Origin: Owenia fusiformis
Taxonomy: Eukaryota > Annelida > Polychaeta > Sabellida > Oweniidae
Length of the DNA stretch: 64,000 nt
Reading direction: 5' to 3'
Assembly: GCA_903813345.2 (NCBI GenBank)
Contig: CAIIXF020000006.1
Coordinates: 558,001-622,000 of the forward strand
Made by a program: the position numbers and the translations under genes. This document shows, in pieces, positions 12,301 through 62,300 of the stretch; position 1 is the stretch's first letter; every line of letters begins with the position of its first letter. The notes below the pieces were generated by a model. It ran no database searches. It was not told the DNA's origin and saw only the letters and a program-made list of their open reading frames with translations.

Positions 12301-15300
12301 GACTTGACTAAGGGTGGACTTGACTTGGGGTCGACTTGACTAAGGGTTGAGTTGACTTGGGTTGAGTTGACTTGGGGTTGAGTTGACCAGTTACCATTGT
12401 ATATACTTATTGTATACAATCATTGTCTACAATACCAGACTTTGGATGGGATAAACAGACCATTCAATAGTTTATTCTGTATATCATATAATACTGACTC
12501 AAGTTATGATATATGAAATGATTCAAAAGTTATGATATATGAAATTACTAATAAGTTATGATATATGAAATGATTCAAAAGTTATGATATATGAAAGTAC
12601 TAATAAGTTATGATATATGAAATGATTCAAAAGTTATGATATATGAACAAATGAGCACAAAGCAAACATATCATATATACTCACATCATGTATGATATGT
12701 TCATTAATTTGTTTAGCTCACTTGTTGTTCATACAAGTATAACATTAACACAATTGAATGTAAATCTAATATACAGGATGAACTATGATATAATAATGAT
12801 ATAGTAATTATGCAATAATAGCATAACATATATCGGAAGCTATATACATCTTCTTTTGTTAGTAAATACAGTTTACTTGTACAGTAAAACCTGTCTAATC
12901 TGAATGTTGCATCAACATAATGCAATTTATTCTCAATAAATATTAATAGCTTCATTGACCCCAAACCTTTAAATTTTCTTAACTTTTTGATTTTTTCAGA
13001 AGTCTGCGAACTCAATAGAAGATGAGCAAAAAACAGCAGACATGAAGTGTGCAACTAAGAGGTGTTCGGATATACAGGTTTTACTGTACATGATATTTAC
13101 TCACATATGCTCTGGGTGGTCTTGATATCTAGCATTATATGTTCATAAAACAATTATACACAATGTCCTCAACATAAATATATCACAGATAACAAACACA
13201 CCACATCTTACACAACACTACAAATTGCAACATTTAAGACAACTCACAAAAACACAAAATTTCGCAAAATATCAAAACACAACATTTGGACAACACATCA
13301 GAAAACAAAATTTCGCAAAACATCAAAACACAACATTTGGACAACATGTCAAAACAGACAGATTGTAGCTGAAGCTGTCAATTTAGATTTAAGAACACCA
13401 CAAATATAACATATTAACACAGCAACATTGTTAGGCATTAAGAATCACTGCACTTCATGTTTTATGTTGATCAATGAAATTACAATAACATAGGTGCCAG
13501 TAGTTAGTTACCAGGTTCATCATCAGGTGGCTTAATTCTGCTAGAGTATTGCAGATATACAAGATATTCATTTAAATTTCAAAAAAAGATTTTTGGTGGA
13601 TAATTTTCATGTTATCAATTTTTCAGTTTGATAATAAAAATAGGATAAGGTATCCACAGTCAACTATTTGAGTGAAAATTTCTGATTCTAGTAAGCTACT
13701 ATCGGCATTAACCATGACAGTCCTAGTAATAATATTATTTTGGTTGAATATTTAAATTCAAAAATGAAAATCATTTCTACTGGCATCTAGTCAATTTAAG
13801 TGGCCAAGTGCTTATTACAACATTACAACATGGAAAACCAACTCTGAAATGGTAACTGGGCCACTTTACAAGGTAAACTGTTGATATGAGGAAAAACTAA
13901 CACAGAACACCCCCCTCCACTATTTAATATCTTCGCCAAAGTGGGTTTATTGGAAAAAAAACTAACCTTGGTCCTTGGAAGATTTCTAGCTTGTTCTTGT
14001 ACCAGCGAAGTTTGGCATTCGATTTACAGAACTGGCAGAAAAATTCTATTTTCTTGTCCCCCTCTTTGCATTTGATGTCTTTTAGAGGGACAATGAATGT
14101 ATCAGGTTCCTGTAACATAAAGAAGTGGATACAATATTTCAAAACAGTTGTTCAGTTTATAAGACAAAATGTCACCATCTAGTTCCTATTGCAAAAGTAT
14201 AACAATTTGTGATATGGATACTGAACACCAGTCACAAACATTGGCAGCACATCTTCTTGCATTTTGCATAATTGTGTAATTGTACATGTAATTTTACCTA
14301 TCACAGGGGTTATGCTTTTACTGGCCCTATAGTGAATTTATTTTGTGAAAATTCTGATTATCACTATTGCCAGTTATAATCCTGTGCCAATGTCAGCACT
14401 CGATCAGTGCTCTGACAATAATGCTAATAATTAGTGCTTATTTAGTACAGATATTTTCAATAATTCAGTATGTAGCTATCGTAGCTATTCATTAAATGCA
14501 ACAAACAGATTTATCAAAAAATTTCATGTTATCAATTTTTACGAAGATATCCATTTTGAATAAAAAAAACAGTAAGACTATAAATTCTATCTAACATAAC
14601 AAAATTTGAAACATTTCAACAGAGTAACAAAAACATTATCAATCTAACACCCATTCTCAAATTTCAGGTCCATTTCGAGGTTCCAAAAAATAACCGTGGT
14701 GTTACAGTAATCTACACAGTCGAAAGTTTAATACTCCCAAATATTTCATGCACCACTATCTTATTTTTTGAGATTCACCATGATATGTAAAGGGAGAAAT
14801 GATTATGATTGTATCAATGATTATAGGGAAATTTCAATGATAGCAAACAACTATTTAAACAAGTAAAACAAATGCTTTGTTGTTCATTTTTGGCCCATGA
14901 GACCATCATAGAAAAACTAACACACAAATTAATACTAGGTTTATTTTATTTATCTATACAATAACAGACCAATTTGTAATAGAAATTATATTTAAAAAGT
15001 CTTAAATCACAATGTATAAAAATGTTTTTCATAAAATTAAATGCTCATGAAGTAACAACTAAAATGAGTTTACAATACAAAGTTGCAATACAAAATCATA
15101 AAGAGTTTCAAATTAGAGTTGTTTCAAATGAAGTAAAGGTATAATTAATTGAAATTATATGATTCCAGGTATGGGAACACGCCTTTCTTAACTGAGAAAA
15201 ATGCAGTAACTGCAATAGGTTATGACCAAAATTTAATCATACTGAATTTTCCTTCAAACTTATTCACATATTAAGTTCCTAAAATTTTTTCAACAATCAA

Positions 15301-18300
15301 GTAATGCCTAGTAACAAACAATATAACAAAAACATCTACGTTGTGTACAAATATGTTTTTTCATAAAAGTTAACTAACATCCAAACATTTCTGCTTTTTT
15401 GCAAAATTACATAGTTTAACATTGCTTTAACTAACATGGGAGGTTTATAAGTCGTCATCCGGTGTCTTATTTCACCCTGTCAAAGTACACGTTATGTACA
15501 CACTGTTTCATCTCATTTGCCAGTTTATACAACCGTTTGGATCTGCGCGTTGCTTCTGGTTGCTTTTTCCCTCAATGCTTGAACATCTGGCTTGTCAGTT
15601 TCCGGATTTTTGTTGCCTTGTGCCTAGAGTCCTGTTCTGGATGTGACTGTCTTCAACAATCTGTACTTCTTCAGTATCTTTCCAGAAACCATAGTGTGGA
15701 GATGTCTGCCTTTTCTCTGCCCTATATTTAGTGGCTCAAACTTGCTGAATGAGGACATTCCTAAGCAATAGCCTGTGTCTTACATTGCTCTTTTGTGGTG
15801 TGCTCAACCATGCTGCATTAATTTGGTCTTCAGTATGCTTTCTGGGTGTACCTTTTCCAACACAATTCACTTTTGACTTTGGTCTTTGAATGTTGCATTT
15901 GGCAATTCTGTACTTTAATTTTGAAGGTATTTATTTCTTTTTCTGCACATGTTAGTTCATTATTTATTTTCATAGATTGCCTTCTCCATCTTTTTTTGCG
16001 CACCTAACCATTTTTTATTAGAGTCAAAACTAATTCTAAGTTCAGTGATATCTGTGATTTCAGTGATACCTTTGCTTTTTGAGTCTCCCTTGTTTTTGCT
16101 TCAAACTGGTTAACTCATTTGTAGGTATATAATTTCCACTGACGTGTTCTCTCTCTTTGGGTAAATAGCCTTCATTGTCCTTCTCTTTGGTGCAATATGC
16201 TTTCTGTATTTCAGCTCTTGACTTCACCATATTGTCACTTTCTGAAAACAAATATTTGTTGCTACAAGAATGATCTCCGTTACGGCCAGTTAATGTACCT
16301 CTCGTAATGTTTTTCCAAAGGAATCGTACATTGTTTTTCAATAAATAATACCTGGTAAAATTATTTATGTATAAAATGACACTTATGGTGTCATAAAACT
16401 TAATAACTAACTAATTTGTCTCAAAAATAAAAGGTACTAACACTATATTGTATTATATTGTATTTTGTTTACCACCAATGAAGGTGTGCAATACCTCTTG
16501 GGCATATCCTGTATATATATACGGTCCTAATTGACGCATAATCATGGAAGGCAGATCCAGGAACCACTCCTTGAAGCAGCCCTGTGTTCTTTTATGTGCA
16601 CTCATACATAGGCATACAAGTACACACCACAGCCTTTTTAAGAGTCGTGGACCACTCAGTCAAACACCCTAAAGTACTTTACGCAACAAGAAAAGTGCCT
16701 GAACCGGGGATTGAATCTGGGACCTATGCGTAATTGGTACATGTGCTCTACCGCTGAGCTATACGGGTGGACTATAATACCTTATGTTGTTGTTAGGATT
16801 GGGTAACCGTATTAACATGCAGGGGCCTAATTGGATCAAACAAATTGGTGATTTATATTCTGGTACATGTCATAAACCAAGAATTATCAAGAGGATGAAT
16901 AAGTGTTGCATTTATGAGGAATTTTTGGATGAAAAGCAGAGCAATGAAATTTTATGATCTTTGTTACAAACAGGTTACAGATGTTATGTTTTTATAAATA
17001 CGAAAATAACAACATGGCGATGGCGAAGTGAGTTCTAGAAAATTCTCACAAATAAATTTGCACATTGTACCTGAACATATACACGAGATATGGTCTTTAA
17101 AACGAGAATAATTACATATCAGGTTCATCTACTCAAACGAAGACTAATTTTCGTAGTAAGAACAGCATATACTTACATAGCCCGCTTACTTTGATGTCCT
17201 TCATTCACCCGCCGTGTCAAACTTTATTGCTGACATCAGTTATAAAAGATGATATTTCTGTGCTATTTTCGTACTTTTATTTGTTAAGTGTAAAACTGAG
17301 TGATGAAAGTGTGAGTATTGAAGATAAAAAACAGGCAGTATACTCCACTTTACTAGAATGTTATGCCTCAGTTGTAATACTGTCACATCTATATACCACT
17401 GTTACGAAAGTCATGTGCTTTACTCCAAATACAGTACATTTGAATTGGGCTATCAGTAGCCATGGTTTTACTAAAATTTTCTAGCACCGGTGTAATTTGT
17501 AACACATCTTGGATGTTTCGTTATTTGTATAAATGGCAAAAGAATGTGGAAGTACCTCTTTCAAGTTAGTTATTGCATCTCATAAATTAGAGGTGTCTCA
17601 ATTATGAAGGTTTTTGTAATTCAGCGACAATGACATTCATTGTTAAATTTCATTAACTGTTTTGAAATATCAACAATGAGTACACGTTCCTGAAAGACTT
17701 GGCATGGTAGGTAAAAGCAAGCTGTGAAATGAAAGGGAGTCATAGCAATGAAATAGAATTTTAACATCATATTTACTTGCACCTTTGATCGGCGACAGTA
17801 TCGAAAATGAGAAAATACGACTTTGAAAGTCACTGGCTTCATGGAGCCGACGGAAATCATTCTAATTTTAGGTGTTCTTTTTAAAGTTAACTTCATGTCT
17901 ATAATATCACATCAAGCATTCCTTAGTTCTGCATATGTTTTATGTAATATGGCGGATTGACGGCGATAGCGTTTGAACCTGAAATTTGGGTGAGAATGAG
18001 AATGGATGCTTAACCTAAACTGGTCTAGATAATATAGTAAAACCTGTCTTATCCGAACACCACTGGAACCAGACAAAAGTGTTCAGATTTGCAAACCTTC
18101 TCATTACAAGATTTTTTAAATATCTGACCTACTAAAAGTGTTCACATTGAGAGGTGTTTGGATATACATGTTTCACTGTATGAGCATTTACATAATGTCA
18201 TTAAGGACTCATATAGATAGCAGTTCACCACGGATTGTTCTCCCAACTGTCTTATTAGTTTGTATGTATAAATTCCTGTTTCGAAACTTTAATAAATCAA

Positions 18301-21300
18301 ACTACATTGTAATGTTAATTTTTCTCTACATAATTCTTTGACTACAATTTCATAGATCTAATATCAAAGAGGTTATAGGCATTATCAATATATTTTATCT
18401 TGGAGACTTTTGGATTAAATATATGTAAATGGGCTGAACTTCAACTGAATTTCCTGCCAACTATTTACAGTTCTCAAAGCCATCACAATACAGTTACTGC
18501 TCCAATAGGACCAGCTAAAGGTTGAGAGATGTTTACAGAACTAGACTGGAGTGGTATATTGAACCCAACTGGACCATGCATCAATGAACCTTCAAATAAG
18601 AGTGATCAAATGTAGCACAGGCTACCTTTTTAATATTCCAGCTCACAAGATAGATTTTGAAACTGTCTCTCCCTTCGTGGGAACACTGTATATATCAATA
18701 CTTTATAACTCATTCACTGATTTGTTACTGAGTGGTCCAATTAGGGTTAAGTTAGAATGAGAAGGTGAAATGAAATACTTCCTGACGTCATATTTGTAAT
18801 TACAGAGTATTGTCATGTTTACATTTTATCTATCAAGATCACATCATAAGAAGAAGTACTTCAAATCACCTTAAATATATCAAAGGGAACATGCGTCTGA
18901 ACAAAATGATAGGGTTTAGAAAATAAAATAAAAAACAGAGGTAGAAAGCAGTTCTGTATCCATTTCCGAAGATATGTGTATGCATGGACACACAACTGCC
19001 AATTTGTCAAAATCGTATAAGATTTTATCGCCAGCTTCGGTGTTGACAAAACTTATGCTCCCTGTAAATATAAAAATGCATGCTCCTTTCCAAACCTTCC
19101 ATTATGGATTCTACCTTTTTAGTAATTGACTTTTTCTGAAATATAAAATACATGTGTCTTATCTGGAAATGGAATATTTAATTTAGAAGTCTCTCCTGTT
19201 TGAAATAGCATATCATTAAGATAACAAAAGACTAGCAATGTTAAGTTCAATGTATATTATCATTAACTTTTTCATCTTAATTATATGAGATTATAATTGA
19301 TTGAAATTACAAACCCACGTAATGCTAAATAGTTAAATTTAATTTAAAGATATATGCTATTCCAAACAGGTATCTGTTTGAAATCTTTCATAAATACACT
19401 GAACGATTTCAAAAAAATATAGAGCTATTGTAACACACTGGCCCTTCAAAGTTAATTATATGTATAATGTCCTGGTGAGGGGGGGAATCTTTGGAGGGTG
19501 GGAGGTGAAAACAAATTGCAAACATAAAACCTTTATTTACTGTATTTCCAATAGGATTTTATATTACTCGATAGTAAAAATAAGATAATACTGTACATAC
19601 AAATAGAGTGCTTGATAAAGTGACACACCTGTTGAGTTCATGTGGACATTATAATGAAGACACTGCTAAAAATGCTAAAAAATTACTTTTGTGATCATAG
19701 CCACTACAACCTGTAAATATGTTACATTGATTTTAATAAAAAAAAAAGATCACGATCTTAATAAAAGTTTCTATTGTCATATGAATTCATTTCAAGGAGA
19801 TATAGAGGCAACATAAAACTTTTGTTTATATTCTGAAAATTTGCCGAAAATCGTAGAAGGGAGGTAACATTAAACATACATTAAACTTTGAATGGCCTAA
19901 TACAGCAAAGCATCTGTACATTTACCACACATTAATAACACAATTTTGTATATACAAACCTTTTCTTTCTTTTGGTGATGTTGAAGAGTTGGCCAATCAG
20001 GGATGACTTCCGCAAGAGATACACGACGGTCCTTTGAGCTTCGTCTTTTAGGATCCAGAGAATCTCCAACCTACAATGTGGGTATACAATTAACCACCAT
20101 ATATACCACACACATAAATTCAGTTCAGCATTCATTCAAGAATCTCATGTACAATCCATTTTGGATTTTTGACAATGTTTAGAGACATGAAATCCATGGA
20201 GAATGCTATATTCTAGCATGCATAGTTAATTCAAATTTAATATAAATTTGGTGCAAGGTTCAGATCGGTTGTTCATAGATGGAAATATTTTCAATTGAAT
20301 TGTTTAAAACATTATCAAGTGAGTACCCTTCACCAGAGATTAACTCCATTTCAACACTCTTTAAATTCAAAAATTCATAACAGGGTAGGTATAGTCAGAA
20401 AAAGATCACCATAAGAGCTAATAAAAAATGATAGTAGCATTTTTTACAAAATCATATTCCTATAAAAACCCATGAGATTTACGTTTAAGATTATTAAGAT
20501 TTTATCCGCATCAAAATATTCAAATCATTTGTTTGAGTTGGATGATAGCATGGCGTGCTGAAGGGATCGGGGTATATGCACTGAAATGTTTTGAACAATA
20601 TCAACTTATATTGTTCATCATGACACAACTGATACTACTGAACAATAACACTAAATATAAAATATTTCCACTGTGGCATTAGTTTTGCAGAAAAATTTCC
20701 AAAAACTTTTAATGAGTTAGGCCTATCACTCAAATTGCTCAAGAAAAGATAAAAACCAACACATTTAGATTTAATAATAAATTTGTTTCAGATACAAAGA
20801 GTGATTTATTTGTGCATGAAGCAAGCGTGTATTAAAAAGTGGAGAAGAAATTGTGAATTTCTAAATAGACACTATATAGATATATTCATGCTTGAGAAGT
20901 TGGAAATACTAAACACATTGTTTAGTTGTAATGTAAATACTCGTACAAGAAAATTGTGAAAAATTGATGAAAAAATCATGATATTTAAAATGAAGAAAAA
21001 GTTTGTGTGCCCCAACCTTTTTCAATGATGGATCAGCTGTTGACCCTCTGCGTCCCATATCTATACTCTATAAAGGTAAGACTAATCTCAACAATGGAAC
21101 AACATCTAAAGGGTTAATAGTACATAGTAGGACAGACATTTCTATTTGAAATTAGGTCACTAATATTTCAAATATTGATGTCTGAATAGTGCACAAAGTA
21201 CATGCTTGTGAGTTGTGCCCTGTGCTCATATCAACAAACAAATTCATGTTATACAATCACATTTTGAAAATATCAATCTAAGCCTGTGGCTCATTGGTAG

Positions 21301-24300
21301 GGAATTTGAGCAGATAGTGAAGTGTCATGGGTACAATTCCAACTGGGGTAGACTGACATTTCCACACCAGCCCTTAGCACAGGATTATTCATAATGTTCT
21401 TATTTACTAACAGCACTTCGAAAATACTATATTCAAGATTTAAAAAGAAAGTTATTTCACAAATTTGTTTGTTGATGTGTATACATTTCAATTTCATGCC
21501 TGGCTTTCTAGTTATCACCAGCAGATATTACTAAAATATATTTCATCATGCTCTATGACAAATATACATTGTGATAATAAAAATAGTGAATGATCATTGC
21601 TCAATCATAGTTATCGTAATCTTGTGAATAAAATAGAATAAATAGTACATGTATGTTTATATTATATATTATAAGATTTGAGATATATTTGCCATATTTT
21701 AGGCTCAAACATAAAATAAACTAGGAGTAACATTATGATTTTGCATATTGATCATTTTAAACTAAGTTCTAAGTCGACTGTATTGAAATAAAACTAAGGT
21801 TTTAAATTATATAGCGGAGATATAATTATAAACTACGGTATGACTACTATAGTGAATCTAAAGCAAGAAAGATTCCTACTAACCTTGGTTACAGAAATAA
21901 TACATAAAGTACAGAATGGAGATAATCAAGAATAGCTATGTAAAACAAAGACAGGGGACAGGAGATATAAGACAGAGACAATAGACAGACAAAAGAGACA
22001 ATAGACAAAGAGACAGAGGACAGTTTTGGAGATCACTAATCTACGACAAAATTTCCCACACATGTAAAGTACAGATTATGAATGATATAAGACAGACGAC
22101 ACTTAACATAAAGTGCATTTAAGAAGCTAAGCCTATTCAAATGAACATATTTTACATGCAATGGAAGATGCTTTTATTGACACAAACTATTGAAAAAGAG
22201 CAAAAGCGCAAGCATTGTGACCTATTCCAAGAATATTATTGAAAACAATTTTCAATAATATTTAAGCTGATGCAGATCTACTGTGCCTATTCTAAAGCTG
22301 CCCTATATCTACTGCATATTTATGAAAAGATCGATCAATTCTTGTGACATCTGAATTGAGCATGTGTGGGGTCAGAAAAATTGAAACCATTCCAAAGAAT
22401 ATGTAAAGCTATAAAAGGTTTCTCGTTTCTCCCTGTTTATTTATATTTATATACAGGATTTGCTATTATTCAGAAAGGTTTGGGACAATTTTTCAAAATT
22501 GCTCATTTCAGCATCACATGAATTTTATTTATATTTTCAAATACGTACTACACTGTGTCTTTTAAATTTTGGTTGCTTAATGGTATATTTTTCAACTTTC
22601 CTTAAGGAAAGTCTTCTTTCATGAATGATGGCTGGTGCTTTACCATTTTCCCTACCATGCGGCTATAATTGTGACAAACCACATGCAAAAATGACAAACC
22701 ACATGCAGAATGTTAGCTAAACAAAAATATATAAGTAGGTAACATAATCATTATGATTTCAAAACAACATATCAGAGTTAAATATTTAGTAACTTATTTT
22801 ACTTTTTAAAATACCAAAACATTTCATATTTAAAACTTTTAGTGAGAAATCTTTTCATAATATAACAAAATAATTCTGCTTTTGACATTTTATCAGAACA
22901 TTTTCAATATTATTCATAAGAAGCTAAAAATATTCATTTAAGAACAGCATATAGTTGTCGTGAAATTTGAACTACTGAACATGTCTTCAGTACAAATATG
23001 TATTTATAGTTGTTCTTATTTGATTGTCAAATAATGACTTTTAAAATATCCTAGATACGAGTTGTTAAGAGCTTGACAAAACTGTTTTAGCATCACTGTA
23101 GACACATCTTGTAAATCAGTACAGAGTAATGTTGTGCCAAATGAATCGAAGTCCCAAATGTTGTTAATAATTTGCCAGCATACCGATGTGCTCAAATCAA
23201 TGTTCTATCTAATATATTAATACTTAATTATGACATTTAATGTTTCTATGGTAATGCAATGATTTCTAAAGGTTAAATCAAATAATAAATTTTCACCGTT
23301 TTCCTCTCTAAAGGAATCACTTTATCATCAATTTCAGCCTTCCCGATACAAAAAATGTAAAATTGCACAATTAAATAATCCATAAAGCATAAAAACATAA
23401 TACTTCATCAGAAATGTTTGACATAAGATTACATAAGATAAATTAAGAAGTGCATACACAAGGAGTAAAGTTAAATGAATCAGACAGAAGTTTGGCCAAA
23501 ATCAACACAAAAGTATTTAAAACAAAAAAGTGTATTGTAAGAAAAGCTTTTTCAGATCTAGAAGAAACAATGAAGAGATGTTTTAAATATTTTAAAATTT
23601 TTACCCTTTCTTCATCTGAATCTGACCCGACATCAACTTTTTTCAAGTTCGCTTTCATAAGTTCGATTTGTGAAGGTCGCCTTTTACGATCCGCTAAAAG
23701 ATTCACAAACAAAGGTGTTTTATACAAGCTAGATTCCCCCAAATTCTTATCATTATCATGCTGTCGCTTATTATCATCATGGTTTTGCTGCACAGCGCAT
23801 TGCCTAAGCAATCCATTTTCTTGTATAGTGTCCATATGGTCAGTGCATGTATTATTTGAATATTGTTGTCAATCTTTCTGCTCTGCCATTTTTCAGTATC
23901 ATTAATTTATATTTCTCTCTATTGCACAGCAGGTTTTAAAATAGCATGCATAACATTTTCCATAATTCATTCAATATAATGGTATTTCTTCATGAGTGAT
24001 TTATGGAATGTCTAGGCCCATATTTTGAGTTCAACAATATACTTCCATTCATGTTCACATAAAATTCCTGTATTACAAAGCTGAATTTGCTTTTAATGAA
24101 TCCAAAAAGTGATTGTATTTCATGTATTTCTCAAACATGTATGGTTAAACTCAGAAGATAGGCATCTAGCTACTGTCAATATAATAAAACAAAGGCTGAA
24201 GTGTTCTTACAGCTTTAAGTGTCACAAGGCACTCATACCACAGACATATCAACCAGCACATTTGACAATATATAATTAAGGATGGCCTACTTCATAAACC

Positions 24301-27300
24301 ACAATGCTGTCTGTGGCAGATAGTTTTTTGTAATATATTCAAAGTAATATTTCATATTGTGAGTTGTGAAACTAAAAACTGTATGAACACTAATATAAAC
24401 GTTGATAAGCTGTAAACGCGCGCAACTTCTGAAATCGCAGCAATGGGTAAGGCTCAATTATTGGCAAAATTTGGAAAATAAAACACTTAAATCATACATT
24501 GTTTAGAACACAAAAATTTCCCAAAAATTATTCTGATATAACATATAATATGTGTCACATACTTATAATATTAATCCATTGATTGGAACAGAAGATTCAA
24601 GTCATATTACAAACAAAACAAAAAATTAAGCCTTTCCCAAAATCACAAAAACGTGAAACATGTTTTATACAGTATGATGAAACCAACAAACTCACAATAT
24701 CAACCCGAAATCTGAATTTCCTATGAAAAACAAACACAGTGTAAAATTATTCTTGGGCGGAAAATGTGCTGTAAAAAAGCAAAGTGATGTATGGTCATAA
24801 ACATTATATGAGAACAATTGTATCTGTTGCTATTAACACACTATCCAACAAAACTAACTAAATCAAAACTATATTCAACAATTAATTAATAACAATTAGT
24901 ACTGAACAGCTAAATAATGCAAAAATGATATGTTCCATTTTGATCACACCAAAGCTTATTTTGAAAGCGATGGTGAAGTCATTATGGAAAATCTATAAAA
25001 GCTAATAAGCATTTGTTAAAGCATAAGTGTGTGACATAGAAACACTGATGGTTCTCCTGTCTGCTCCGATGGGTCTCCAATGATAAACATGTAACATATA
25101 TCATAACACACAGTCCTATATAGCTAGATATTTGGGTCACATATATATAAATCACATGGTTGGTCACATGATACCTTCTCTTCATCGCTCCCTACATCAG
25201 CTGCTTCCTCTTTTTTCACAGATTTCAGTTTATGTTTGTCCTTATCTGAGCCAACTGAGGTCTTCCTAGTCACTAAAAGAGGAGAAGTACATTTTATACT
25301 GGATGTAATCATGAATGTTTCAGGCACTGCACCCTGAGTGCATCATCCTTGTTGCTCCCTAAATATAAAGTAGAAAGGCAGGGGTCCATTACAAGAAATG
25401 TTTCAGTTCGGAAAATAACTGCATCCATTGTTGATGCTATCTTAATTATGATGTCACAATAAAACTTAGAACATTGACTTATGACTGCTAACATTCAGAA
25501 TGAACCCCTGAATCAGAATAAAACATGGAAAGACATACATCCTCTGTATTTCCCTAGATTGGTAAGAAATGTGTTTAGGTAGGGAAAATTCAATTGCATG
25601 AATATGTGTTTGACTTACGCAAGAAACTGCAAGATTCAAGTCTAACACCATCTCTAATACTTATGTTCTTTAAAGCATACTTGCTGATTGCAATACAATA
25701 AATAAAAAATATATAGCAAATAACAAATTTAGTTTAGTTAAATTTAGTTAATTAATTTTGTCACATGAGTATATGCAGATGAGAAGTTTAGGAAAGTGAA
25801 TTAATCTTTTAATTAATTTTTCATTGCTGTATTTTACAGTGCAATCTGCCAATATGAACACTTTTTCTCTGTCCCAATTTTGTATTCTCTAATTGACTAT
25901 AATGTTAAAAACTTGTGGAACGACTAATCCCATCACATTTGGACAGTTCAAATGGTGTTTGCAGTAGACAGGTCTTACTGCATTTGGATAATAGTATAGT
26001 ATAGTATTGCAATCCATCAGGCTTACTTCATCAAGGATAATATAACAAATCCATATATGGTGATATAAGAAGTCATAATTCATCATATATCAATTTGTCT
26101 CATGATTAAGATTCATGCTAAATAAAATAAACTTTTCAGAAGCTTCATTCTGTTCCTTAAGTTCTAAAACATATATGTAGACTGGTTGTTCAATAAGTTC
26201 TGAGGAGTAATGTCCCTGAGGTTCAGTATCAAAACTTATTGAAAACCCTAAATGATCTGAATCTACAACAGTAACAAATAATGAATAATTCTATGATTTA
26301 GCATTTAACTAATCTGTAGTAAATGAAAAATCATCATACAACAATATTTTTCAAATGCATCTTTTGGAAAATATTAGCTGAAATTATAAGTTCAGCTTAG
26401 TGTATTTATTCCATAATGAGATATTATTCTTTAATATGGATGCATTTCAAAAATACCAAACTATAACCAACTCATAATGCGCTTTCTTACCATCTTCACC
26501 ATATTCTTCTAAAAAATATCAAAATCAAAATTAATTGTATTCTGTTTTTTTATGTACAGTGTGAAGTATGCAAAAAATGCTCATCTGCAAGGACGCTAAA
26601 CATCCATACTTGAATTCATTCCCATTGGCCTCATTTTCTGTGCGGACACTAAACATACAACTATAGATTCAATCATTCTGGCCTAACTATAAGGAAATCA
26701 GGTAATAATAGATGTGTCAGTTAACTAAACAATAAATATAATGCTATGGGATTGATCAGTTGTCATCATCATAAGTTATTTCTCTAAATTTTGTAGAATT
26801 TCATTAGTGGTTAATTCCTGTTGGAACTTGGGAAAATCATTACCCAAAATGCAACAATGCTCGTATAAGCATCGTCACAGATGGGGAAGACACTAAAACC
26901 ATAGATTTATTGATTGGTTTAAGTTGACTTTGATTATCCCATGAAGTGAAAATAAAGACTCTAAGGGCAAACAAAATATTTTCTAAAATTGTGGTTAAAA
27001 ATGTTTGCAGGCACATAGACTGACAAATGCTTTTTCCAACTGTAATGTCATCATCAAGTTTTAAAAGATACAAAATGTTCAGACATGATGGTACATATAA
27101 TGTAAAAATCAAAGTACAAACAAGAAAAAGACAAACTCCTGGGATGACAATGATTGAATTCCACCAAACAAAACATTTTTCCAGATCACCAAATAAAATC
27201 CATTACTTACTTACATCCGATTACTGGTATATGAGTTTTGGCCCGGACACAGAGATAGAAGAATTAATGAATAAATGGGCAGATAGCTATTCAAACTTTG

Positions 27301-30300
27301 TTTGGTGGAATAATGGTAACATCAACAAAAATGATGATGATTTTAGATGTAGAGTTAGTCTTCTACTAGAAATACTGGTGAAATAATATAAAAACCCATG
27401 AATAGGAAAACTTAAGAACGTCTGACAGGAATTTCAAAAAATAAAATTTGGGGTTAATTTACAACAATGATTTGATTTATTCTTAGTCCTCAGATGACAA
27501 TGCTAAACACACCAAATTATTAATAAAAGTGATGACAAAAAAATTGAAATCACTTGTCAGTCTATGGAAGGGTGGGTAGTCACCATGACAACACCTACCC
27601 TCCTTCCTATAAAGCTCTCACAAATGAAATGATTGGTGGGCTCTCATATTAGGCAGAACTTATGGATTTCTTTACAATTATTGTTATTTGCAAAAACAAT
27701 TCATGGCTCAATGATGAATTAAGGTCTCATGACATGTGTAAGTTATGGGCAAACTTATGAATGTTGTTGAAACTATAGATATTGCAGCCTCTAAATGCAG
27801 GGATCCAAACATCATCGACTCTGTGCCTTGATAATGGAAAAACAGAGTGGATGAAATTTGGACTCCTGCATTTTAAAGATGTAGACATTGCATCAATCTA
27901 CTGTAATTAAAACTATTCAAATAAGGTTGGGATTATTTTTGTAAATAACTTGAATCACACCCACTGATATTAGATCATCTGTGAGAGCTTGGCTATAACT
28001 GAGTACAACATCCTACAGCCGTAACAACAAAAATCTACAGTTAAATGCTATGTCTGCTAGTATCTTTGCATGGTTACATCCTACAATCTGCTCAATAGAA
28101 GTCACTTACGCATGGGTGGCACGAAATCATCAACTTCACCTGTGTGACGTAAATACAGACAGGATGACAAAAGCGGTGGGTATTACATTGAACATACAGT
28201 TAAAAAGAACATAATATACATTTTTTAATACACTTGAAGATACATGTAGGTGTACCCGACTCCGCAAGAAATTGTAGTGATTTGTGTAAATAAATTGGGA
28301 AGTCATACCTTTTTCATGAATTTTTGCTAGCAGTGTTCAAAACTAATATTTTCAAAATTTAGATGAAGCACTGTTTGATTCTAAAATCTGAAAATTACAA
28401 CTTTAAGGAAATGACCATGATGTCTTGAAACTCTAAACAGGTCCAATGACAAATCTGCATGTAAATCTTCTCTACTAATATCCAATAAGCGTCAAAATTG
28501 CATCTTTTAGCATCACCGTTCCCATAAGTAAATTGCTAAAACTAATAGGTCTTAAAAAAGCATACCTGGTTTGAGATTATAGTCAAGATCATCATCTTCA
28601 TCTTCAAATTCGGTCTTTTTCACATCTCTGAAAAATATATATGATTTATGTTTAAAATGCTGCAAATTGTATGCTGATATAGTATTGGATGTTAAAATTT
28701 ATGGGATGTTGTTATTGTCATTCTGATACTCAGACCATCTCTGCTATGCACAAGAATGATCTAGAAGGAACCTGAGAGAAGGCTGTGATATCTCATGATG
28801 TGTTATTGTACTGGAAACTGATATTGTATGGGATGTTGAAATTGTATATATCAATATGCTGATTCGTGGTAAATGGACAAAATAACTGATAAATCATAAA
28901 TGTGAGTCTAAATACACATATGAAATGGCAATTGATGAATAATATAAAGAAGTATAAAATAGTATAAGGCAATAAATACTGACATAATAAATACTTTGAT
29001 AGAACAAAACTGAAAACCAAAATCAAATCAAAATCAAATATAGTCATGCTGATGAAACAATGAAAGTATCACAGAAAAAATTAATACCAAGGATCAAGGG
29101 TGGGTATGACATATGTGGAATATAGAATAATTATTTTGGAATGTGTCTCTAAAAAGCCCATGGTAATGGTAATACACTGGGATTGACAGATAAGATTCAC
29201 CACTTCAGCACATTCAGTCTGATGCAACCACTAGCTACTCAAGAAGAATACTTTTCTAAAATTGTAAAAAGACAAGTCAAAGGGATGGCATATGGTCTGT
29301 GTTACAGACATCTATAGTCACACAAATAAAGCCTTAATAAGGCATTACCAACCCTTTTAATTGAGCATGATCCCTTGTCATAAAGCTAGGGTGGAAATAT
29401 ACAATTTTAAATCGTGTTTCATTTTTTCATCTTGTACACAGGGTTGGTCAAATAATTTATATTTATTAGCTATATGTACATTCAGAATGGTAACATTTTT
29501 CTGGCCTATCGTGTATAATAAATACAGCAAAACCTGTTCAATGAAACACCTCTCTGTAAGTAACAGTTTTCAAAACGAGTCCAAGTCCTATATTTAATGA
29601 CCCTTTCTGTAAGGAACACCAGTCTACAACGATCCATTCCATTCTTCTGAATAGAAGGCATCCAAGAACACAGGTTTTATTAATACTGTTTGATTATACC
29701 TGATACTTTATTTTACATCTCATTATGTTAATCACATTTGATGTCTGGTATATGATCATATTATTTGGTTATTATGTTTTTGCTTGTGTTGTCAAGCTTC
29801 CCATGTGCTTGATGGTATGAGACCATTTTAGTGATTTAGTGCCCAATATAATAGGGTTCCTTTGTCTCAACATGTTTATTTCATAATATCGGAAATAAGT
29901 AAATGAAAAACTGAAAAAGAACATACCTGTGTTTAAGTAGTGCTCTGAAGTCCAAGCTGGAATCCTTGGGATCTGAAATGTACTAATAAGTGAAACAACA
30001 ACACACATATATTTGATACTGCACATTATTATGTACATATCATATGTACATGTGGTGTGCAGAATCAAATATACACATGACACAAAGAGAAGAGATGCAT
30101 CATTCTCAAATCAATTTTAAAATGTCTGCCAATTCTTTAATTCTCATTTACTTCACATATAGTTTGCAATTTGACCAATGTTATTGAGGTTATAGGAATA
30201 GGTGAATGCAGAGAGAAGTAAGAAATGTACTGTACAGATAGAAAGTTGCTTGGATGAATGATACAGATATATGATTGTCTTTCTTGTTAAGCAGTCAAAA

Positions 30301-33300
30301 CACTTGGCAAGAGACCTTTTCAGTAAACCACGCCACCTATTTGATATGATGTCATTATGTAGATACACTGCAACATATTATGACATCATGAATCTCTATC
30401 CACTTTACCCAAGTTTCTGCTTTGAGCCCAGGAAAGCAGCAAGGGGTCATTATTTACTGGAGAGGTCAAGGTCAATTCTCAACTGATGAAGAATCATTGA
30501 CTTTTTACATTGAAGGAATCTATTAAGTCATCATCAGTACATGTATGTGATGCATGACAGTAATTCAGAGTATATGGCAGAAATTAAGAGGCAGAAATGG
30601 TAGAAATCGAGAGAAAGGCTGGAAATATTAAAACATTTCTGATGATATTGATAAACAGGAATACAACATAGAAGAAACAGAGATTGCACTCTTGGAAAAA
30701 TTCTGAACTGTCCTTTTATCAATGCTTTTTAAATTGCATTCACAAAGGATACCCAAAATTTCTCCAAATAAACGGAAGGAGATACATTACCAGATTCAGA
30801 TTAACAATGAGATTTGCGTAAAAGGCTTATAAGTTTACAGGCTTGTACGTGTATTAAGAGTTTAAAGATATAGCGCTTAGTTTGATAGGTAATATAGAAT
30901 ATGTTATATTTTGTTAGTGGACAACCTAGGATTTTCTGATTAATTTTTGATTTCTTTTAACAAATCCTACTTAAAACAAAATATGCACAAATTGAAATGA
31001 ATCATGTTAAGATCAATATATGTATGTTATTTATATTCCCTATCATGTGATTGGCTCAAACTGATCATTTGATACACCATGTGACCAGCAACTCCTAATA
31101 TACGCTTGGTTCACGATATTTTTCAAAGGGACCTGATCAGAGATTAAGCTTTATAGGTTTAATCTTTGGCCAGACCTGATTAATATGCTTATAAGGGGCC
31201 TGCAAGGATCTGTCTGCTTTAGTGAGTAGGACTCCATGCCTACATTATAAATAAACAACTGTAAATCTAGTAATACAGAGCCAAAAATCTAGCGCTTAGA
31301 GCTATTAATAAATATAGTATTGAATATATGATAGTGAGTAGAGAAAAATGAAAGTAGAAATGTTATAGCATTCTTTAGATATTTAGAAGATCTATGAGAT
31401 TATTTGACTGATGATAGAAAAGCTATAAAGAATATTAGTACAAAGTTATCTTCAAAGTTAGTTTAAAACTTCTAAGCAGTAATCATAATTCTTTGTCATA
31501 AAATAAGTATTTTGAGAGAGAAGAAACAGCTAAATTTACTTGAGGAATTAAAAGAAGTTTTGAGAGATTTTATAATTTTCCACAAAGCTGTGTTAGTAGA
31601 AACTGAAATAGCACTAGTAGGAATAATATTGAATAAATTATTCCATTGTTTAATTATGACTAATTGTCTAAAACTACACACTACATTGCTTGAAGTAAAA
31701 GATCCTTCCAGACCCCCAATTTGGACAGCAGTGTCATATTTAGACACAAGAGGGCACTACCTTTGATAAATACAGTGAACCCCGCCCGATCCGACTCTTG
31801 GCCCTTATCATTTTCCAAAGCCACTGCAAATTTGCCCTCGTCTGGGAATTTGCATTTTTTGATCTTCAAAGACGCAGTTTTTCTGGATTTATCCAGATTT
31901 ATTTCTGTGCGGGCATCAGGTTTTAGTTCTCTGTTTCCTTTAAACCAGCGAATTGCCCCAAATGGTCCTCCTTCATACTTCATGTCAACAAACATGGTGT
32001 CCCCTAGAAAATACATTCAATCGAATTCATGAGACAGAGAATTTTAGAAAAGTGATGTAAACATGTAAATAATGAAACTTGTATCATTTACACGTATACT
32101 GCATATGTCTAAAATTGTACATTTCATGAATTTAATTGAATCCTACATGGACTCGATAACAGCTAAGGTTAACTTTCATTTTCAAATGCCATAATCAAGC
32201 AACTCGAAAATGCACTTTTTTAATTTAATAAGCCACAAAATGTTCATATTAAGATTGAAAGATTGAGATGGAAATTCTCTTGCTTTCTAAATAGACTGGT
32301 TCTTAATAACACAAATATTCAAAATTAGCCAAATATAAATAAGGTATCCATCATGAACATTTCATGAAAAAATTATGATTATAAAAAGTGTAGTTGAGAG
32401 CCCTGAAGCAAACAAAAAATGATTCTACTTGCAGAATTTCCACCTTATTTTTGCTATTGGATGAGTATTCAGAACACTCATCCAATGTTTACTCAATATA
32501 TAAAAGATGTCAATTTTCAAGAATTATACTTTCATGTAGCGATCAGCATTCTATTATTTTGTGTTTATTATGTTGCCCTTTGTGCTTTGTTATTCTTAAC
32601 AAAGTAATATTCTTGAATAATTGAAAAACTAAAGATAATTATTTATAACAACCATACTAAATAAATTAAAATAATAATTAAAATGATAATCAAGTCAGCA
32701 GCTACCCCTATATCACAAACTCTAATCATGGAAGTAGAAAAATGCTTTCAACATTCTGCCACTAAAACAACTTTATTGAAGATAAAATGATGAGGAAGAA
32801 TTTTTACCAAAAATCTTCAAGAATTTTCCTTTTTAAAACAGACATTTTGTGACATAGGGGCATAGCATTATAACTGCATCATATTAATATTTAAGTTTAT
32901 AGTATATACAGGGTGGTCCAAATAGAACACCCTGTACATAAACATCTATAAATTACCCTCTGTGACAACTTGGTTCTTTGGTTTATCTGCTACAGTTGGC
33001 CCTGGTACAGGACCTTTGACTTTCTGTTTACGTTTTGGCCCCTCTGTTTCATACAAGGACTCATCTACCTCCTAAAATGTACACAGATCCAAGACGTTCA
33101 ATTAAAATATAATTTAAAAAAAATCATTTCATGCATGGAAACTTAATTATGACCTAATGCTGGTATTAACATTTACTGGCATATGATAGCTACAATACAC
33201 AAACATTTGGACCAATCAGAGGATGGGAAAATGACAATGAAATAATAGTAGTTTTTATTCTAAAAGTAATGAAATCACCATAAAATAAAGAATCCCATAT

Positions 33301-36300
33301 TTCGGAGATGGTCTGTTTCTTTAATCAATGCAAAATAAAGAATATATATCTGAAAAATGAATCATTATCAAAACTATGACGAAAATTATCTGTTAATTTG
33401 AAAATAATACAGTAATTACATAATAAAAATGAAAAGGTTATTTGAAAATAGTCAGAAAACGTAGAAAATCAAGGAAATATTATCTTATCATGATGTTTGC
33501 AAAGTGAGAGAATTCACAAATAGAGTGATTTTAATGACCCTATTATTTTTATTAGATTAAAAATTTATAATAAACATCAATACGATACTACATACAGTTT
33601 TTATACCAACAGAATACTTAATAAGATATGAATGCTTCCATGAACATGAAAATTACATTTCCTCAATGTTCTTATCCCAAAATAAAATGCAAAATTAGAG
33701 TGCAAGATCACAGACATATTTTTTATGATTTTCATGTCCTTATAACTAGTTCCATGTTCATGTCTACATTAAATCAAAGACTAAAGAGTGACACAGACAT
33801 TAGACACATTGTGATATCAGTACAAGAACAAGAATACAACGGAACAGAATCCTTTTCCAAACATAAAGTCACCAGCTAGAGAAGAATGTGATTTGTTACA
33901 CACTTAGTTAACTTAAGTTAAATCTATACCTTTCCATATTTTCTCACTTTCTTAAAAAGCGCTTTCTGAGTAAAGTTCACCTAAATATTGAAAACAAATT
34001 GGAATCAATCGCATGAAAAACAAGTTTCTGAGTAAATATTTTTAATAAATATATTTTATGAAACTTAAATGACCTACCTCTCCCGGTTTTTGCTCTCCAG
34101 GTTTGGCTGTAAAACAGGAAAATCTGTTCAATAAATCTAGACACAATGATTTGAAATCAGAATCTGTACCATGTATATGTATACATAATTAGTTTTTTAA
34201 TACATAATGCACAATGATTAACCATCTCTAAAATAAAAGATTATTATAATTAAAGCACACTTTTACAGGGGGCTAAAATTGAAGTTTTATTCGATATGTG
34301 AATATGGTAATAAATGACAAGGATATCAATATAGTTGTAGATCTTTATCTTGTATAATGGGAGATATATTCCCACAGAATCTTAAGTGGTCATGCAATTT
34401 GGAACCTAACAAAACATACTGTAAGAGATCCCCTTAAAACATTCAACTTTGGTCAGCCATTGGTCGAATGTCAGTGTCATCTTTTTGTAAAACAAAGTTT
34501 GATTGGGTGAAAGGTAGAAAAGACTCCATTATTTTTTTGAAAGATACCAAGATTTTGAATTTGTATATTTGTAACTGTTTTATATAAATGAAAAAAGTGT
34601 TGATTGCAATTGGTTCATTCAATATTCACTAAGGTGGTCGACTCCTTTGTTAAGTTACAATCATGGAAAAACACTGACATTTTGTCCTGGCTCGTTGATG
34701 GTTTTTAAATTCATGTATTCAACACAGCAAGATCACATAAATCAGGTGCTGCAACAGTTAACTAATCAACTACTTCACAGAAAACATTTACTTCAATCTA
34801 CCTCCTCATACTCACATCAAGTTGATCATTGAGTACTGAAACTTCAGCTCACATTTCACTATCTTTTTAACCTATTGACACAAAATTTCTGGGATTCAAG
34901 TCTCACTGACATTTTTTGTATGTTCTGTCATTTTGGTATATGACACATACATGTGTATGGAATAACTTGGGAGATGTATAAATCCTAAGATTTTGTTTTA
35001 ATTGGATAATAAATTGTAAAATGTAAGCCATGGTCTCACTGCTTAGTGATCTACCTGTGCATCACAAAAAAAACTCAAAAACAAAAAGATAAATGATAAT
35101 GATAATAAAGGAAAGATAATTGAAGCAATAAAGAACAATGATATAAGAGTACATGCATATGAAATTTCAAGGCCTCATTTTTTCTGTTTCAATATTACAA
35201 GGTCAATCAATATTCCTTTTAAGAAGCTGATTTATCAAAGATATTGTGATTCAACATAACAATTGCAAAGATCAAGGCCTTTAAAGCACTATGAAGAATG
35301 TACAATTTGGCTTCTTTAAATGTTGATAAAAAATTAGATTACACTTTTTTAAAAATAAATGCAGACAAACACTAGATCTAATAACTACTCTAATACTACT
35401 GCTTTACATAAAATACAACACCAGCGTTTTTTCACAATACCAAACCCTTACCCTTTTTCCCTGGATACGATTAAAAAACAAGAATAATTACCAAAAGTTC
35501 AGATAGGACAAAAATACCCATATTCAATCTCCAAGCATTTTATAGATTCAAGAGTAGCAGAATCAAAAATCCAAGAGAATGAGTTGGATAAAATATTAAG
35601 GTGCTTTGTTGTGATGGCAACACATTTTTGAATTTGGTTACCATAGTAACAATTTGTGCAGTGAATACAGTAATTGTTGTGCAAATTATTATTGTTAGCT
35701 TTACAAACTTAGAATGAATAGTCAAATTAAGTTTTATTTGAGCAAATTAAATTAGACAATAAGACCAAATTTTAGAGAACAAACTCCTCGATCAAGTACA
35801 TCAATTTCAACCACAGGGATCTGATAAACAAAATATCGCCTCCTATTATGATGTATCTAGTTATTTAAAATGAATAAAAATTGCTAAAGCGAACTACTGA
35901 TGCAATTTTTACATTTTAAGACAATACATATATATATTTATATCAATATATATAAAATATATATATAAACACAGTGCTTGAACAAATGTGAAACAAAACA
36001 GGAGCCAAGATAAACGTAATATAACATATAGAATCACAATCTTTGTCTTCACAAAAAGAGCTTAAAACTAAACACGCAAAAGTGTTTTAATACGGTATTA
36101 TTAAATGTCAATCAGCTTAGCAAGGTGGTAGCCCGTTTTGTCAAGAAATATGCAAGTAGAAAAAGATTAAATCATAGAAATTAAGAAAGAATTGTGCAAT
36201 GTTAAATATAGTACAATATGTAAAATGTATAGACAGGAGACAGTTGACAGTGGTGTTTAAAACTGCTTCAACATACCCCCGCTACCACTGTCATATACAG

Positions 36301-59443: not shown

Positions 59444-61100
59444 TATAGCGTTGCCGGATGTGATGCATTGTGGGTGATGTGTTAAATAAATGATTACTGA
59501 TATAAGTACACTAAATGTGTAATAATTCTATGAATAAAAGTGCAAAATGTGCCTAAGTGTGTGTAAAGCTCAGAACAATGTGAATATGAAATCACATATA
59601 GCAAGTAAAGCAGTTAATTGTAATAAAGGTAGCGTGTAGATTTGTTTGCATTGATAGTTACATTTGTGATTATGTAAAATGTAATTAAGCCTCATAAAGA
59701 GGCATGAAGCTTTTATGTATGTTGTAACATTATAATTGTGGGATGAAAAGAAAGTATATCTTCAGCTATTTATTGAGCTGTACGTCCATCAAATGTATCT
59801 CTTCTGTCTCACTGAGGAATTATTGAAGTGGTAATGTGAGATATACACATAGGTTATAGGTCTCGAGCATATGCAGGCATCATAAAATGCATGACGTCCA
59901 TGACAGGCGCCTCGTCACAGACAGACATCAAAGTGGATTCCTGGTTAGACCCGTGCCCTCAGCTAGTCATCTCATCAATTAACATCATCATACAAATCCT
60001 GGTTCATCAAAGACTTGGAAATACACCTCGCATACACTGGGCCCTGGAGATGCGATATTATGAAACAGTGGCTTCAAGTTTCTAGAGCATTACTCTGCTG
60101 AGTGAAGCACTAATACAGGATGCTGAATTTTACAAAGCATCTTTGATACACTTGTTGAATAATTTGACAAGGCCTTTAAATACGTAAGTGTTACATGGGA
60201 CCTTTAAATACTGAATTGTCAAATATCCTTGGACAGGATATAAATTAGTACAGGGCCTTTAAGTGATTTGACAAATATCCTTGGACAGGATACGAATTTA
60301 CACAGGGCCTTTAATTGATTTGACAAATATCCTTGGACAGGATACGAATTTCCACAGGGCCTTTAATTGACAAATATCCTTGGACAGGATATTGAATACT
60401 CTTGTACAGAATATTCCCTCACACACTGATTGAAATGACAATTAGGCCTATCCTTGCACAGGATAATCATATGAAATAAATTCACACGGGGTCTTTAAAT
60501 ATTCTTGTACAGAATATATTATGTGAAGACATCGGCATCTGGTCGTTTGGCTCAAGCATCAACCCCGGGTGTTGGTCTCATCGAAGATCCCCGGGTGATT
60601 TCTATATTTCCTTTTCCATCCTTATTTCTCATAGAAAACACCAACAAAACTGAATTAACTTTCTATATACATCTATTTACATTTTATATACGTTTTCCCA
60701 CCCCCCTAGTACATAATTCGTGTTCAGTCGTTACATTCTAGCTCAAATTCTACGGAGCTCAAAGTTTTCCAACTTCCCGCTCGAAAAAGTGTTCTCTCTC
60801 TTATGTGCATTGCGCATGTCCAAGACGCCACAAATGGCAATTGACGCACCGCGCATGCGTCCCGGAAGTTAAGAAAGTCTAAACTTCCGGTAAAAACAAA
60901 CGTGAACATTTTATGTTTACACTTGAAAATGAGAAGATAGTAAGAGATTACATTAATATAAAATGATATAAGAATGCTGAAATATAATGCAAATACATGA
61001 TTGAACTAATGAATTGAACAGTCGAAGGTAAGAAAGTATGACACGTAAAAGATCGAATGAAATGAATTTGTAAATTTTCTGAGTTCCTAAAAATGCTACA
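59444..61100 (-). repeat. 3' LTR (1,657 bp)
   Basis: On the minus strand it starts TGTAGCATTTTTAGG and ends CGCTATA, an almost perfect TGTAGC/GCTATA inverted pair. It contains four or more copies of the self-complementary TATCCTTGGACAGGATA (60228-60460) in units of about 60 bp with GGGCCTTTAA.TGATTTGAC. An open frame on the + strand (59891-60085) is antisense and repeated in the other LTR; I do not regard it as a gene. Confidence 0.8.
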
Positions 61101-61879: not shown

Positions 61880-62300
61880 CACAGCTTATGGTTGATTAGC
61901 ATTGAGCATTTGTGACATATGGTACATCACATAGTTATAAATTGTGTTATGTGACTTCTCTCATCAATGGGAGCTTCTATACAAATAGGTGCTTGGAAAT
62001 GGCTAATGGTTGGCTAGCACTGACCCCTTGTGGCATATGAATTATGATACATCATTTACAAATTGTGTGGTGTGACTTCTATCATCAATGGGAGCTCCTA
62101 TACCAATAGGTGCTTGAATATGGCTAATGGCTGGTTGGCTCTGAGCATTTCTAACATATGGTACATTATCTACAAGTTGTGTGCTGTGACTTCTATCGTC
62201 GATGGGAGCTCCTATACCAATAGGTGCTTGGATATGGCTAATGGCTGGTTGGCTCTGAGCACTTCTAACATATGGTACATTATACTCCTATACCAATAGG
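61880..62300. repeat. 114-121-bp tandem units in the internal region
   Basis: Three to four units with GTGACTTCTATCATCAATGG and GAGCTCCTATACCAATAGGT (repeat starts near 61951, 62072, 62186). The 114-bp spacing is a multiple of three and corresponds to the 38-residue coding repeat on the minus strand; the 121-bp unit is frame-breaking. Confidence 0.85.

Follow-up and report, generated by a model that had tools for sequence, protein, structure and literature searches.

A possible phosphorylation module varied by splicing in the N-terminal inter-Ig linker of an Owenia fusiformis twitchin gene

Introduction

The closest described system is the twitchin of Mytilus, in which sites for protein kinase A (PKA) have been placed in two regions, D1 in the N-terminal part and D2 behind the kinase (Funabara et al., 2003, as cited in the accessible portion of PMC12040844). 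According to the same portion, phosphorylation of this protein by PKA relaxes catch and reduces its binding to actin filaments, and catch muscle is inherent only to bivalves (PMC12040844). Further parallels come from myosin-binding protein C (MyBP-C), as presented in the accessible part of PMC10073172: the slow skeletal form is a thick-filament protein with a heavily spliced N-terminal region containing PKA sites, and the M-domain of the cardiac form has a cluster of serines that is phosphorylated by PKA and tunes filament contact.

The locus described here lies in a 64-kb window (the whole stretch of DNA analyzed) from Owenia fusiformis. It resembles Mytilus twitchin in having PKA-type sites, by consensus only, in both an N-terminal inter-Ig linker and a post-kinase linker, the D1/D2-type layout. 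It differs in that the text available for Mytilus gives a single mapped serine in each linker, whereas the N-terminal linker here has five sites, spread over four small exons and including a forced two-way choice. Eight Ig loci were counted ahead of the linker (half-domains paired by hand, with two Ig domains as the basis of the search model), compared with seven Ig domains before Mytilus D1, which the available description puts between Ig7 and Ig8. Compared with slow skeletal MyBP-C, this is a different protein in a different animal group, each cassette has its own site, and two cassettes are exclusive by frame (PMC10073172, in part). The serine cluster of the cardiac M-domain has its likeness here in candidate sites, but the accessible part of that source does not describe a layout of one site per cassette exon (PMC10073172). 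Literature searches, with most subscription papers outside their reach, returned no title on how PKA sites of twitchin are spliced, no title on twitchin regulation among the matches listed for twitchin and annelid, and no text match for DFRXXL with twitchin.

Results

By its kinase domain, the gene containing the cassette exons is identified as a twitchin. In a comparison with kinases of solved structure, the best match of the kinase piece at C6:525958-526206 was 1kob TWITCHIN (2.3e-37, 128.9 bits), which we take to be Aplysia twitchin; the second and third matches (82.9 and 82.2 bits) are also named twitchin, and the highest-scoring non-twitchin kinase reached 59.3 bits. This kinase is encoded downstream of the four cassettes in the same gene, which is an Ig/FN3 gene: both Ig and FN3 domains are present in the window, and the Ig domains around the kinase were recognized with a home-made model.

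The cassettes sit in an N-terminal inter-Ig linker, which also holds a DFRxxL motif, the type of sequence through which myosin light chain kinase binds actin. All exons given below are on the minus strand. The linker is preceded by an open frame with an Ig domain (31681..32016; Pfam I-set, 4.2e-10) that the gene model missed. It starts with the DFRxxL exon of the gene model (29927..29972, 46 nt, phase 1 to 2, peptide PKDSSLDFRALLKH; acceptor 4.6, donor 6.1, coding -3.6, sum 7.1), followed in the same model by an acidic-peptide exon (28566..28627, 62 nt, phase 2 to 1, DVKKTEFEDEDDDLDYNLKP, sum score 16.6) and microexon E (26491..26508, 18 nt, phase 1 to 1, EYGED, sum score 13.6), whose skipping is frame-neutral and which is below the size handled by the antisense decoy scan. 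Beyond the cassettes, an exon at 13967..14109 (143 nt, phase 0 to 2) encodes the first half of the following Ig domain and can be joined in frame to any of the four. The linker is probably disordered; when the spliced sequence was compared with solved structures, five chains were matched at E<=1, the best (0.053) being a titin Ig domain. Within positions 14000-33500, the single tandem array is a 13-base one at 21970-22018, and the cassettes have none.

An initial reading of the four small exons at 19960-25272 as bearers of RKTS, KRRPS, RRGS and KRRSS plus RRVS proved accurate. Exon D (25175..25272, 98 nt, phase 1 to 0, TRKTSVGSDKDKHKLKSVKKEEAADVGSDEEK) carries RKTS-V and exon C (23605..23693, 89 nt, phase 1 to 0, DRKRRPSQIELMKANLKKVDVGSDSDEER) carries RRPS, the two being predicted alternatives to each other. 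Exon B (21017..21067, 51 nt, phases 0-0, SIDMGRRGSTADPSLKK) carries RRGS and has the form of a cassette, and exon A (19960..20070, 111 nt, phases 0-0, VGDSLDPKRRSSKDRRVSLAEVIPDWPTLQHHQKKEK) carries RRSS and RRVS-L. Each has AG/GT borders. Exons A (score 16.4), D (14.4) and C (12.1) score above all 116 antisense candidates in the 54 kb scanned, of which none reached 10, one scored at least 8 and seven at least 5. Exon B is the weakest (5.6; acceptor 4.1, donor 0.7, coding 0.7), with a donor under the cut-off of the antisense scan, and was skipped by the gene model; because of this low score and the skipping, the case for B is made by the motif it carries, by its 0-0 phase and by the phase-0 borders that flank it on both sides.

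The cassettes show a strong enrichment of PKA-type motifs. The strict form R[RK]x[ST] occurs five times in 115 cassette residues, compared with twice in the 3,829 residues of the 83 non-cassette exons of the whole gene model and not at all in 31 further exons, or portions of exons, in the window (1,197 residues). When the residues of the four cassette peptides were shuffled 20,000 times, no shuffle yielded as many as five motifs, and one gave every cassette a motif. The two strict motifs outside the cassettes are in an exon that is Ig-like by eye (C6:557098-557254) and in the post-kinase linker (C6:519352-519480, SRTSRRTTESS), the only other linker in the gene model to have one. By consensus, the cassette serines are likely candidate PKA substrates. 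It could instead be that the basic clusters act mainly as filament-binding patches, or as substrates for basophilic kinases other than PKA (PKG, PKC, CaMK, twitchin kinase), with PKA not the key kinase; lysine and arginine abound in the cassettes, and a consensus alone does not name its kinase. This we consider very improbable: the strict two-basic motif goes beyond what shuffles of the same composition produce, and catch-muscle twitchin is, in the accessible portion of PMC12040844, acted on by PKA.

Half of the 48 exon combinations enumerated (24) are in frame. Since D and C, with 98 and 89 nt, both run from phase 1 to phase 0, including both or neither breaks the frame, and exactly one of these neighboring exons of equal phase should be chosen. 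With microexon E, B and A retained, joining D to C through canonical donors leads to a stop after 87 residues, reckoned from the DFRxxL exon, and omitting both leads to one after 53 residues. The exclusivity predicted for two of the exons in the first-pass annotation is thus borne out by frame, provided that D is spliced from its canonical donor. The skippability predicted for two others also agrees with the phases, as B and A can each be removed without a frame shift.

The proviso is needed because D has an alternative donor, giving an exon at 25156-25272 (phase 1 to 1, score 14.9) that permits D and C together in frame. One possibility is therefore that D and C are joined through this second donor, so that splicing would not be exclusive and a single long linker would hold all five sites; the donor scores slightly higher than the canonical one (1.3 vs 1.0), and the gene model picked this form of D together with C. 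Both donors are weak, however, so the gap between them means little, and the canonical ends GSDEEK and GSDSDEER are alike, as would be expected of paired alternatives. We regard the joined form as quite unlikely, and retain the choice of one exon from the pair as the preferred reading.

Signs of common origin for this pair are slight. At the protein level, the score of the C-D comparison is equaled or exceeded in 186 of 5,000 shuffles, and the DNA of the 690 bp around each exon is no more alike than shuffled sequence (31.0, vs a shuffle mean of 29.5, SD 4.0). C and D are each other's best match among local open frames (36 and 46, with antisense maxima of 28 and 30), these being frames that overrun the exons. 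Local open frames contained no third copy of a cassette clearly above the antisense background, the next-best scores being those of D with the frame of the acidic exon (32, antisense 30) and of B with a frame at 28491 (24, antisense 23).

It had also been proposed that splicing could set both the number and the kind of phosphorylation sites. For kind this fits the predicted exons, as the choice between C and D would swap RRPS-Q for RKTS-V; the number would not change with that choice, which always keeps one site, and so could be altered only by skipping B or A. How far this happens depends on whether B and A are really cassettes. If they are constitutive and only C and D alternate, every isoform would have four strict sites, and only the kind and surroundings of the first would vary (RKRRPSQIELMK vs RKTSVGSDKDKHK). 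In favor of this, the C/D choice is the only one forced by frame, and exon A, a cassette by phase but perhaps constitutive, accounts for two sites out of five and terminates in IPDWPTLQ, a stretch that, judged from this single sequence, resembles a conserved element. When exon A and the next exon were compared with the genome (E<=10, 20 matches), the self match alone extended beyond the last residues of A, and a text search for PDWPTLQ in the literature (with most subscription papers outside its reach) gave no match. Against it, B and A are both 0-0, and they have low splice-site scores (donor of B 0.7; A 1.5 and 2.2), an indirect sign, as such scores are common in regulated cassettes but those of C and D are about as low. 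Constitutive inclusion of both exons seems to us rather unlikely.

Discussion

The reading that we favor, at a little under even confidence, is that the N-terminal inter-Ig linker of this twitchin gene is a splice-variable phosphorylation module. Judging from the reading frame, each in-frame transcript made with canonical donors would take one of D or C, so that the upstream site would always be single, either of the weaker type RKTS (D) or of the strong type KRRPS (C). B, with one site, and A, with two, one of them RRVSL, could be kept or dropped without shifting the frame. With one site from D or C and three optional ones from B and A, the linker would range from one to four strict sites. 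From what is known of twitchin, the unphosphorylated linker may help to tether thick to thin filaments; phosphorylation by PKA would loosen this tether and speed relaxation, and isoforms with other sites might differ in strength of response or in cAMP threshold. In O. fusiformis, what would be affected is the ordinary relaxation and stiffness of muscle, and not catch of the bivalve kind. If the cassettes are spliced differently among muscles, exon choice, and not kinase activity alone, would determine how cAMP controls this giant protein of the thick filament.

A broader and more doubtful proposal is that in this twitchin from outside the molluscs splicing sets a series of PKA sites beside DFRxxL, one cassette per site, so that muscles would select how many switch sites there are and how strong, and that a PKA-releasable filament tether is older than the molluscs. 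As an annelid case, it would point to a PKA-regulated linker, of the type behind bivalve catch, that existed beyond the molluscs.

The interpretation suggested at first sight of these exons, with fiber-type-specific catch control, is upheld in part: the twitchin gene and its PKA-type motifs stand, but the molluscan catch setting is weakened by annelid-leaning markers in the genome. Creatine-kinase-type genes and a bilayer-hemoglobin linker, with no match to molluscan hemocyanin, indicate that this is probably an annelid-like animal. Each marker has its limits. The molluscan hemocyanin profile (PF14830) had no matches in the genome, and none in 14 controls either. The bilayer-hemoglobin linker profile (PF16915) had three (E 5e-7 to 5.3e-4), one with an internal stop; such linkers are not confined to annelids, since in the accessible part of PMC6400237 they are reported together with extracellular globins from ten phyla, including one chiton and three aplacophoran molluscs. 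The genome has 19 phosphagen-kinase matches. Creatine kinases reach 5.5e-102, but two PDB entries named arginine kinase also score high (1.7e-88 and 2.6e-69), and glycocyamine and lombricine kinases, those of the annelid type, fall below the creatine kinases (about 1e-68 and 1e-59). A search of the assembly for mitochondrial COX1 gave no match, and no mitochondrial contig was found.

The Fox genes bear on the species itself. The unusual O. fusiformis Fox gene that combines RING and RAWUL domains was not found in the search: the three RAWUL matches were all under the cut-off, none was near a Forkhead match, and one C5 Forkhead frame shows no such domain by eye. In the available parts of the sources, nine of the 12 chromosomes of O. 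fusiformis bear Fox genes (PMC9539403), and its genome is assembled into 12 scaffolds of chromosome scale (PMC9977687); the assembly used here has 38 Fox matches, across nine numbered contigs.

Predicted PKA-site cassettes in a twitchin gene

Four small exons on the minus strand, coding for a linker between Ig domains, each carry at least one PKA-type site. They lie at exactly the positions claimed for them by the first-pass annotation, and all of the motifs it named are read in their predicted peptides: RKTS in exon D (25175-25272, 98 nt, phase 1 to 0), KRRPS in C (23605-23693, 89 nt, phase 1 to 0), RRGS in B (21017-21067, 51 nt, phase 0-0), and KRRSS plus RRVS in A (19960-20070, 111 nt, phase 0-0). 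Upstream on the same strand are an exon encoding DFRALL (29927-29972), an acidic exon (28566-28627) and an 18-nt microexon (26491-26508, phase 1-1); the Ig exon downstream, also minus-strand (13967-14109), opens in phase 0.

This arrangement is confirmed and non-random. The strict motif R[RK]x[ST] occurs five times in the 115 cassette residues (C 1, D 1, B 1, A 2), with the caveat that the motifs were part of the reason for which these exons, and B in particular, were originally chosen, and not once in the 1,197 residues of 31 other exons or exon parts in the window (the gene model minus the cassettes, with some doubtful exons kept, plus two Ig open frames). The gene model over positions 505001-661600 of the contig (C6), surely incomplete, predicts 3,933 residues from 86 exons, of which the 83 outside the cassettes have two strict motifs in 3,829 residues, so that about 0.06 would be expected per 115. 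When residues were shuffled inside the cassettes, strict motifs averaged 0.35: none of 20,000 shuffles reached five, and one had the motif in all four exons. For the looser [RK][RK]x[ST], the cassettes have six against a shuffle mean of 1.04 (5/20,000 reached six; 53/20,000 had it in all four exons), and the other window exons three.

Exons were scored by splice sites (hand-set matrices) and codon use (3,664 codons, drawn from seven open frames of this gene and a long one on a different contig), giving 16.4 for A, 14.4 for D, 13.6 for the microexon, 12.1 for C and 5.6 for B. In a scan for candidates 45-130 nt long whose splice scores exceeded set cut-offs (the microexon is shorter than this limit), the sense strand of an 18.8-kb region yielded 53, of which eight reached 10, five of them motif-bearing: three versions of D, plus A and C. 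None of the 44 antisense candidates in that region did so, nor any of 116 across 54 kb including it, where seven reached 5 and three carried the motif. Exon B scores low, its donor (0.7) is below the scan cut-off of 0.8, and the gene model, running from D with a second donor to C to A, omits it; its support is therefore its motif, phase and place, not its score.

Ig and FN3 domains were detected within the window, and a kinase piece on the same strand, about 32 kb past the window's low end, matches TWITCHIN 1kob (2.3e-37, 128.9 bits), ahead of two more chains named twitchin, at 82.9 and 82.2 bits, and a best non-twitchin kinase at 59.3 bits: judged by these matches, the gene carrying the cassettes is a twitchin. 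On the same strand, a predicted exon at 57623-57769 has KKDEKKE-type, PEVK-like repeats. Near the window's end, an 81-residue open frame is present in two copies identical in protein (59840-60085 and 63359-63604), and one open frame at 62042-62287 contains NVPYVR.AQSQPAISHIQAPIGIGAPIDDRSH as two tandem units. C6:509947-514501 contains a nearly identical pair of copies separated by about 2.4 kb, each including the first half of an Ig domain, which reflect either a recent tandem duplication or an assembly artefact.

Predicted alternative splicing of the linker

Splicing had been proposed to set both the number and the kind of sites, with two of the exons mutually exclusive. Enumeration of 48 combinations (microexon, C/D choice, B, A) left 24 in frame. 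With the second donor of D excluded, there are 16, each with either C or D, never both, and one to four strict sites per linker; with the microexon, B and A included, and counting from the DFRALL exon, canonical D followed by C runs into a stop codon after 87 residues, and omission of both C and D after 53. Exclusivity thus holds by frame for the canonical donors and fails for the second donor of D (exon 25156-25272), which allows D and C together in frame, with two to five sites; this donor scores marginally higher than the canonical one and is chosen by the gene model. The broader proposal stands as a prediction from frame, with the roles divided: a C/D swap changes the kind of site and keeps the number, which varies only via B and A.

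C and D are mutual best matches among local open frames, above the antisense background, in frames that overrun the exons; 186 of 5,000 shuffles aligned as well, and no DNA similarity was found around the two. An origin by duplication is only suggested.

Animal group and possible catch function

According to one published account (PMC12040844), PKA phosphorylation of twitchin in catch muscle relaxes catch and weakens actin-filament binding; in Mytilus, site D1 is Ser-1075, between Ig7 and Ig8, and D2, phosphorylated only once D1 is complete, is Ser-4316, which lies past the kinase and is flanked by Ig21 and Ig22. Compared by position, the present gene has a similar two-ended layout. One of its two strict motifs outside the cassettes is in an exon Ig-like by eye (C6:557098-557254); the other (SRTSRRTTESS) is in a linker exon after kinase and Ig (C6:519352-519480, SRTSRRTTESSAGGRRTR), in a place like that of D2. 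Eight Ig loci were counted before the linker here, against seven Ig domains in Mytilus, using a home-made model from two Ig domains and hand-pairing of several half-domains. By analogy with catch-muscle twitchin, the linker could be a PKA-releasable tether, and exon choice would then set its PKA sensitivity.

The first-pass annotation argued from molluscs; the markers in this 498-Mb genome lean toward an annelid-like animal. Molluscs are not known to have creatine kinase. Creatine-kinase-type genes are present here: one, which by eye looks cytosolic in type, gives 5.5e-102 against creatine kinase, about 1e-68 and 1e-59 against the glycocyamine and lombricine kinases of annelid type, and about 1e-30 to 1e-37 against most arginine kinases, with two entries called arginine kinase at 1.7e-88 and 2.6e-69. 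Other phosphagen kinase genes include some mitochondrial in type and one arginine-kinase-like (by eye). The molluscan haemocyanin domain was not found in the genome, but many bivalves are not known to possess haemocyanin. A profile search with PF16915, the bilayer-haemoglobin linker domain, gave three matches. In published work, annelid phosphagen kinases group with creatine kinases and molluscan ones with arginine kinases (PMC3836730), and PF16915-type linkers are reported from ten phyla (PMC6400237). Taken together, the markers appear, on balance, annelid-like, with a brachiopod or phoronid as less likely alternatives and a mollusc unlikely, and a catch role of the cassette linker in this animal is therefore unproven.

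Elsewhere in the genome, contigs C10 and C1 each have one intronless, mitochondrial-creatine-kinase-like open frame of >430 codons, possibly retrocopies, that on C1 adjoined by a second, shorter copy, and C8:13951116-13967262 holds a tandem cluster of four Forkhead matches in 16 kb.
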